From Halodesulfovibrio sp. (GTDB lineage: Bacteria; Desulfobacterota; Desulfovibrionia; Desulfovibrionales; Desulfovibrionaceae): a stretch of 64,000 bases of DNA. Every line of letters starts with the position of its first letter. Position 1 is the first letter of the stretch. A model generated the notes under the pieces. That model was not told the origin of the DNA. It did not search any database and worked only from the letters and a program-made list of their open reading frames with translations. Of this stretch, positions 5,927 through 7,675 are shown piece after piece. Location of the stretch: NCBI RefSeq assembly GCF_025210605.1, contig NZ_JAOARI010000028.1, forward strand, positions 1 to 64,000. The letters run 5' to 3'. The position numbers and the translations under genes were made by a program.

Positions 5927-6097
5927 ATGCTTAAAAAGAAAAACAAAACGAAGACCACCACCCACAAATCTACCACGCAAAATATGTATGAAGGTGCAAC
6001 ACAGCCCTCATACTTTACAACAGTACGCAAAGACATCCCCTTTGATGAGCTAGCCCAAATTGAAGCCCTGCTATGTGGTGCATGCCCTAAAAAATAG
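5927..6097 (+). CDS. Small basic protein (56 aa), unknown
   Basis: A 56-codon frame, MLKKKNKTKTTTHKSTTQN to the C-terminal CGACPKK, with a strong AAAAAAGGAG ribosome site six bases before the ATG. The first 20 residues are rich in Lys and Thr and likely disordered. The second half is more ordered, with FTTVRKDIPFDELAQIEALL followed by a CxxC pair at C50 and C53. No signal or membrane segment is seen. It matches no family known to me. The CxxC and its tail could bind a metal or thiol, by inference only. It lies immediately upstream of the putative small RNA promoter. Confidence 0.6.
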   Translation: MLKKKNKTKTTTHKSTTQNMYEGATQPSYFTTVRKDIPFDELAQIEALLCGACPKK

Positions 6098-6155
6098 CCA
6101 TCCAATTTTATCTTCTACGTTTTCGCAGCACTAAATAAATTTTTTGTAAAAAGTA

Positions 6156-6184
6156 TTGCCAAACTGATTACATGTGGATATTGT
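6156..6184 (+). promoter_or_regulatory. Sigma-70-type promoter of the putative small RNA
   Basis: TTGCCA at 6156-6161, 17 bases, TATTGT at 6179-6184. Predicted start is about 6191. No open frame of normal length follows before the terminator at 6373, which argues for a noncoding transcript. Confidence 0.6.
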
Positions 6185-6190
6185 GTAGTC

Positions 6191-6408
6191 AAGATAGACG
6201 AAATAGAAAAGTTGGTTAGTTCACTTCATAAACCTAACTGAATGAATCTGTAGTCTCAGGGAGGTGTCCATTTGGAAACTCCACCATGCACTTCAATTGG
6301 CGAATAAGCTAGGAGTATTTCGCCAATATTCAAGTAGGTAACTAATTAATTTTCAACGTAACACAAAGACTTAGCACCAAGGTGGCAACGCCTTGGTGCT
6401 TTTTTTTG
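6191..6408 (+). ncRNA. Putative structured small RNA, possibly 6S-like
   Basis: The segment folds into a nested rod. 6206-6221 pairs with 6340-6354 (15 pairs, one bulged G). 6232-6243 pairs with 6328-6339 (two mismatches), directly continuing the first stem on the 3' side but leaving a 10-base bulge on the 5' side. 6296-6304 pairs perfectly with 6319-6327 as an apical hairpin. Between 6244 and 6295 a small hairpin may form (GGTG with CACC). The rod with internal openings recalls 6S RNA, but I do not recognise 6S sequence signatures, so identity is open. A very short TTG-initiated frame at 6272 behind GGGAGG is an alternative leader-peptide reading. Confidence 0.5.
6372..6408 (+). terminator. 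Terminator of the putative small RNA
   Basis: AGCACCAAGG pairs perfectly with CCTTGGTGCT around TGGCAACG, followed by a run of eight T. Confidence 0.9.
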
Positions 6409-6718
6409 AAGTTCTTCCCCCCACCTTGCCGCGCTCCTGCCTCAAGACAATCATTTTATGTCTATTTGCTACTGAACAAACTAGTTAATCAACCAGTCGT
6501 GCTACTAATATTTTTTTAGTGGCATATTCAATCTCGATTGAGCACCTAAACATCGCACAGAGTGCATATTATCAAATTTTTCTATAAATTACAGGAGAAA
6601 TTATCGGCATCTTATTGACACATTTTAGGAGCAGGATGTACGTGTTTTATTGTTCTTCAACGTTATAGATTCGTTTGATACTTATAGTTTACAAACGCCA
6701 AAATGCAAGGAGGCAGGG

Positions 6719-7675
6719 ATGAGTCTCAATAGGCGTGATTTTGTTAAACTGTGCACAGGGACTGTGGCTGGACTTGGGGTTTCCCAGATGTTCAACCCAG
6801 CTGTTTGTGAAGCCATTTCCGGTTCACTTAACGGCGAACGCCCTCCAGTTTTATGGTTACAGGGTGCAGGCTGTACGGGATGTTCCGTATCTTTGCTAAA
6901 CTCTGTTAACCCACACATTAAAGATGTACTGCTCAAGGTTATCAGCCTCGAATTCCATCCTACCGTGATGGCATGGGAAGGCGAGCCTGCAATCGAACAC
7001 ATGTACAAAATTGCAGAAAAGTACGACGGCAAATTCTTCCTCGTTGTGGAAGGAAGCGTTCCTACTGAAGCTGATGGTAAATACTGTGTTATTGGCGAAG
7101 CCCATCACAGAGAAATTACCATGGTTGATGCAATGAAAGAGCTTGGTCCTAAAGCAGCAGCTGTGCTCGCAGTAGGAACCTGTTCAGCATACGGCGGCAT
7201 TCCTGCTGCAGAAGGCAGCCAGACCGGTGCTAAAGCTGTTCGTGACTTCTTCGAAGAAGAAGAAATTGCAACTCCTGTTGTTAACATTCCTGGCTGTCCT
7301 CCGCACCCTGACTGGATCGTAGGCACAGTTACTGTTGCTCTTGATGCAATCAAAAAGCACGGTCTTGCAGACGGTCTTGGAAAAGTTGTTGAAATTCTTG
7401 ATGATGAAGGACGTCCAACTCCTTTCTTCGGCGAGAACATTCACGACAACTGTCCATACCTTGACGACTTTGACAACGACGTGCTGGCAACTAAGTTCAC
7501 TGAGGTTAAAGGCTGTCGCATGGAGCTTGGCTGTAAAGGTCCTGACACCATGTCCGACTGTTACAAGCGTAAGTGGAACAACGGTATTAACTGGTGTGTA
7601 CAGAACGCTGTATGTATTGGTTGTACTGAGCCTGACTTCCCTGATGGCAAGTCCCCGTTCTACGAGCCAGCTTAA
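6719..7675 (+). CDS. hysB: Periplasmic [NiFeSe] hydrogenase small subunit
   Basis: A 318-residue electron-transfer subunit. The ATG at 6719 follows AAGGAGG; an upstream in-frame start at 6650 would displace the signal. The N-terminus MSLNRRDFVKLC is a Tat signal with the twin arginines at residues 5-6, so the heterodimer is exported folded. C52 and C55 (GCTGC) begin the proximal Fe-S site. The C-terminal part has C281, C293, C299 and C302. C293 replaces the Pro found in standard [NiFe] enzymes such as HynB here (P292), as expected for a medial [4Fe-4S] rather than [3Fe-4S] cluster. It closely resembles D. vulgaris HysB as I recall it. Confidence 0.97.
   Translation: MSLNRRDFVKLCTGTVAGLGVSQMFNPAVCEAISGSLNGERPPVLWLQGAGCTGCSVSLLNSVNPHIKDVLLKVISLEFHPTVMAWEGEPAIEHMYKIAEKYDGKFFLVVEGSVPTEADGKYCVIGEAHHREITMVDAMKELGPKAAAVLAVGTCSAYGGIPAAEGSQTGAKAVRDFFEEEEIATPVVNIPGCPPHPDWIVGTVTVALDAIKKHGLADGLGKVVEILDDEGRPTPFFGENIHDNCPYLDDFDNDVLATKFTEVKGCRMELGCKGPDTMSDCYKRKWNNGINWCVQNAVCIGCTEPDFPDGKSPFYEPA

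Follow-up and report, generated by a model that had tools for sequence, protein, structure and literature searches.

The window analyzed here, a 64,000-nt stretch of Halodesulfovibrio DNA, contains a gap upstream of the hydrogenase gene hysB that runs from the end of a 56-aa ORF near position 6098 to hysB at 6719 and holds a promoter, a structured segment, and a terminator. The sigma70-type promoter (6156–6184; forward strand, like the RNA elements and the TTGACA element described below) consists of a −35 element TTGCCA, a 17-base spacer, and a −10 element TATTGT, as the first-pass annotation had read it. The 17-base spacing aligned in all six species that carry the element, and the −10 sequence was TATAGT or TATTGT in five of them, with a weaker TAAGCT in G008. 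Taken singly, the promoter was not above chance: two promoter-like sites were observed, against 3.7 ± 2.0 in shuffled sequences. Folding and alignment place a small RNA gene of about 215–218 nt at 6191–6408, its start near 6191 being set from the promoter. It ends in the strong intrinsic terminator that had been reported together with the promoter (6373–6408; a 12-pair stem followed by eight T), two stem pairs of which showed changes on both sides across species. The upstream 56-aa ORF (MLKKKNKTK..., 5930–6098) had a recognizable relative only in H. spirochaetisodalis (two of six loci in a motif search).

Within the predicted RNA, folding and alignment give the 5' arm (6208–6221) two alternative partners, 6340–6353 in a closing stem or 6236–6250 in a local hairpin. 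The 5' arm of a second, weakly conserved stem (6232–6243) pairs with 6328–6339. It is followed by a conserved GGAGGTGTCCATTTGGAAACTCCACCATGC element (6260–6289) with a hairpin formed by GGAG:CUCC and UCC:GGA, of which GGAG:CUCC is paired and invariant in all six species, and by an apical hairpin, GGCGAA/TTCGCC (6296–6327). An alternative 3' hairpin (6330–6349), incompatible with the closing stem, has a GNRA loop that reads GTAA in the window and GAAA in four relatives. The most conserved segment in the alignment (AACTAATTAATTTTCAACGTAACACAA, 6340–6366) is mostly single-stranded beyond 6353.

Conservation and distribution

The six RNA-bearing genomes are the window's own (G000), G001, G004, G007, G008, and G009; the four genomes of the genus without the RNA are G002, G003, G005, and G006. 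A DNA search of 39 genomes returned strong matches (E below 1e-27) in five relatives beyond the window's genome, all of the same genus, and beyond the genus its top hit spanned 33 bases, with an E value of 0.002. The homologues had 74–79% identity and were found in five of the nine other genus genomes, each upstream of hysB, which places the small RNA at the same site in six of the 10 genomes of the genus. When genome contigs were scanned for an exact pattern, two named records matched, Halodesulfovibrio spirochaetisodalis JC271 and Halodesulfovibrio sp. N3; one such scan of viral contigs gave no match. With a covariance model of the core, 297 genomes of the order yielded seven matches at E ≤ 0.05 (the six genomes and one at noise level), and 348 genomes of the class yielded the same six only at E ≤ 0.01; no reliable homologue outside the six was found among these 348. 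The R2 match in G023 (E 0.03) was treated as noise. Searches of over 40 genomes run with stricter filters, under which weak matches are lost.

The first-pass annotation had looked to the same gap in related genomes for support, and there the RNA aligned in six species and its flanks did not. Mean pairwise identity was 74% (0.739) over the whole RNA, 82% in the terminator, and 91% in the 3' segment 6336–6366 (25 of 31 columns invariant), and fell to 44% upstream and 22% downstream, where the flanks were unalignable. Two segments of the RNA were conserved beyond the needs of pairing. A covariance search with all Rfam families, in which a known family might have been recognized, gave no match at the gathering threshold and none credible at E ≤ 10. 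Five sub-threshold matches were put down to chance; the one to ncS54, scoring 20.8 bits, rested on the terminator hairpin.

Conservation of promoter, body, and terminator in six species against unalignable flanks bears out the small RNA gene proposed earlier, and on these comparative grounds we regard the prediction at 6191–6408 as confirmed: an independent gene for a structured small RNA, equipped with its own promoter and intrinsic terminator. The conserved arrangement at one locus, the clade restriction, the lack of a known family, and the lack of coding constraint can be read directly from the sequence. The predicted small RNA is clade-restricted and new to Rfam, and represents a small RNA family that had not been catalogued.

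Predicted fold of the RNA

The 218-nt RNA had a predicted folding energy of −66.9 kcal/mol (z = −5.2 relative to shuffles), and the core without the terminator had a z of about −3 in four of six species, whereas G008 gave −1.85 and G007 −0.27. Both stems of the nested rod described in the first-pass annotation exist in the window sequence (6208–6221 with 6340–6353, and 6232–6243 with 6328–6339), and the closing stem reached a pairing probability of 0.99 in G000. The rod was, however, the preferred fold in only two of the six species: it dominated in G000 and G008 and was mixed in G009, and its closing stem was unformed in the remaining three. The nearer partner of the 5' arm was preferred in G004 and G007, along with the GNRA-loop 3' hairpin; in G001, the 3' hairpin formed and the 5' arm was in neither of its two stems.

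Compensatory changes, which the first-pass annotation had named as support if present in the three stems, were found in the apical hairpin (one change in the conserved part of its stem, with some pairs broken in one species), but not in the closing stem, and the two helices of the second stem were 77% and 67% paired across species. The closing stem was 92.9% paired, with nine of 14 pairs invariant and a composition rich in A-U and G-U pairs, and the alternative stem set was 90.1% paired, with three pairs changed on both sides. Overall, compensatory changes were located in the terminator, the apical hairpin, and the 5' hairpin; this covariation rests on six sequences and is correspondingly thin. 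Shuffles reached the observed values in 11–106 of 500 cases for the alternative and 18–124 of 500 for the rod. This control was only modestly exceeded, and the rod fold varies by species; the results thus support a structured RNA but not the rod in its exact form. Switching between these folds may be envisaged, as a thermodynamic prediction that is not common to all species.

Relation to hysB and coding potential

The RNA was adjacent to hysB and co-oriented with it in all six species, its end lying 302–352 nt from the gene, and this adjacency is the sole support for the earlier suggestion of a riboregulator or leader tied to hydrogenase expression. A cis-acting leader or riboregulator of the hysB operon has to be set against the terminator of the RNA and the roughly 200 bases that separate it from a conserved TTGACA (6615–6620), which would belong to a separate hysB promoter and thus part the two units. 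The last part of the gap, with TTGACA at 6615, is almost invariant, and this hysB-proximal segment is taken to be a non-coding leader because it carries one-base indels between species. The duplex energy of the RNA with this leader was no better than with shuffled targets (110 of 200 as low), so that complementarity did not exceed chance and an antisense role found no support either. Four sister genomes, moreover, have hysB beside a gene that we take to be rho, with a similar TTGACA element before hysB and no such RNA. Given the separate conserved TTGACA and leader and the shuffle-level duplex energy, the RNA is probably not the hysB leader, and the present evidence does not make it an antisense regulator of that gene either; we consider a cis-acting role in the hydrogenase operon distinctly unlikely.

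Three further observations concern the hysB region itself. The nearly invariant leader (6590–6719 of the window) is a candidate regulatory leader in its own right. A conserved AAACTAGTTA(A/C)TCAACCAGTCGTG-like element (6478–6506) lies upstream of hysB in the six species and contains the palindrome AACTAGTT, possibly a regulator site. In the four sisters (L081–L084), hysB lies downstream of the rho-like gene and not beside gluQ, the neighborhood having been rearranged between clades.

The 11-codon frame starting with TTG at 6272, from which the segment had alternatively been read as a leader, has good ribosome-site spacing and a length conserved in five of six species, as a translated micro-gene might. 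Its variable codons nevertheless alter amino acids and not silent positions, and G007 has lost both the start and the frame. Because the differences change amino acids, a peptide was rejected; the frame is not conserved as a protein, and we attach almost no probability to a micro-gene.

6S RNA and candidate modes of action

The first-pass annotation had likened the rod to 6S RNA (RF00013), and the candidate does share with it the length, its own gene with a housekeeping-type promoter, and, in the window sequence, a rod-like minimum-energy fold. It differs in that no model matches it, it lies elsewhere in the genome, it lacks a conserved large central bubble flanked by two long helices that are themselves conserved, and its closing stem shows no compensatory change. 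RF00013 matched neither the window nor its genome, even at E ≤ 10. A 6S model built from 13 related Desulfovibrionales 6S RNAs (13 of 14 loci; L035 was left out) scored the candidate loci at noise level with the filters switched off, and the reverse test of the candidate against 6S likewise gave noise. The site before hysB also differs from the genus-ancestral 6S site, which lies between two genes that we take from their sequences to be zapA and rny. The resemblance therefore did not hold, and 6S membership was rejected on sequence, covariance model, synteny, and rod conservation. It is known that models can in principle miss 6S RNAs, and a relocated, heavily diverged true 6S RNA would agree with the length class and with the absence of canonical 6S elsewhere in these genomes. 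Such an origin is very improbable, considering the noise obtained in both directions, the missing bubble, and the recognition of 6S in loci down to 35% GC, by which base composition is not the reason.

Following up the 6S idea led to the discovery that these genomes are without canonical 6S RNA. In a sample of 120 genomes from the order, 115 contained RF00013, and the misses besides the window's genome were four assemblies of 82–96% completeness. Within the genus, G002, G003, G005, and G006 had it, whereas the six RNA-bearing genomes gave no match even at E ≤ 10, and the clade-specific 13-RNA model gave the identical split. The four sister genomes have 6S in a zapA–rny gap of 380–388 nt; the same gap measured 160–172 nt in the six, leaving no room for 6S. 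As loci of 35–39% GC still matched 6S at above 100 bits, low GC was excluded as the reason for its absence. As 6S is a general feature of the order, the four are unlikely to have gained it, and the comparison indicates that 6S was most likely removed from the zapA–rny site in the six. The shortened site corresponds to L055–L060, upstream of rny (contig C37 in the window's genome). According to PMC11124144, Oleidesulfovibrio alaskensis G20 has 6S RNA as a single copy. Our literature search found no paper on 6S RNA in Halodesulfovibrio and, within the literature searched, nothing related to the small RNA. What emerges is an apparent clean loss, in sulfate reducers that can be cultured, of a regulatory RNA that is otherwise nearly universal.

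Since the six and the four form separate clades by rny, the match between 6S loss and presence of the RNA counts as a single event, and this one clade-level match may be fortuitous. Lineage-specific small RNAs are common. These two points weigh against a non-homologous 6S replacement, in which an abundant RNA would bind and control RNA polymerase in a clade that has deleted canonical 6S, as do the closing stem, A-U/G-U rich and with zero compensatory changes, and the rod itself, which G004, G007, and G001 do not adopt as their preferred fold. A replacement would nonetheless account for the loss of 6S, so widespread in the order, in exactly the six genomes with this RNA and for their shortened zapA–rny gap, and the length, the housekeeping-type promoter, and the absence of Hfq all fit. 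It would also agree with the proposal, in excerpts of PMC11077062, of one abundant RNA polymerase-associating RNA per species. According to excerpts of PMC9130861 and PMC11077062, 6S is mostly unrecognized in actinobacteria, where RNA polymerase is accompanied by Ms1 or CoRP RNAs. Like these, the candidate is an uncatalogued RNA in a lineage without canonical 6S; its binding to RNA polymerase is putative. We consider a replacement rather unlikely, but RNA polymerase binding is an interesting alternative by analogy, and the RNA is worth testing as a 6S stand-in. If true, a non-homologous replacement would have been caught inside a single genus whose 6S-bearing sisters provide natural controls. 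The clade would be a direct test of the one-RNA-per-species proposal as excerpted from PMC11077062, with a candidate named and close relatives that keep 6S.

We put at about even the chance that the gene encodes a clade-restricted trans-acting regulatory RNA, independently transcribed, about 215 nt long, and with its own terminator, the transcript being predicted from sequence. Base pairing in trans is the likeliest mode and our default reading. The homologues upstream of hysB, the identity of the RNA against that of its flanks, the compensatory changes, the lack of an Rfam match, the absence of Hfq, the two over-conserved segments, and the separate hysB promoter-like element favor this reading, whereas the thin covariation, the fold switch, a thermodynamic prediction that does not extend to all species, and the 5' arm of G001, unpaired in either stem, count against it. 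The RNA would act without Hfq through the conserved segments ACUCCACCAUGC and UCAACRUAACWCAA, by mRNA pairing or protein binding, and its 5' arm, by closing the molecule or folding locally, would hide or expose the 3' segment.

Hfq was undetected in all 10 genus genomes (a 14-genome control was positive in five), which makes long-range mRNA pairing less usual and counts against base pairing in trans. The candidate shares with Hfq-type trans-acting small RNAs its own promoter, an intrinsic terminator with a T run, and conserved unpaired segments, but differs in that its genomes are without detectable Hfq and no conserved target was found. An Hfq-binding RNA is reported in O. alaskensis G20 in excerpts of PMC11124144.

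In contrast to Hfq, CsrA was encoded in all 10 genomes of the genus, and two GGA motifs were invariant in all six species, as a CsrA-sequestering RNA might require. The number of such motifs, two to three per RNA, nevertheless equaled that in shuffles, and the two invariant ones both lie in predicted stems. A sponge of the CsrB/RsmZ type, with many GGA motifs in loops, was rejected, and CsrA sequestration is scarcely credible.

For base pairing in trans, the search for an mRNA target returned none, as perfect complements of the 3' segment were about as frequent as those of a reversed control pattern. Seventeen perfect seed matches occurred in 10 genomes, six of them being the RNA locus itself; the others were unshared across the six species, except for the homologous pairs L095/L096 and L097/L104, each shared by two genomes.
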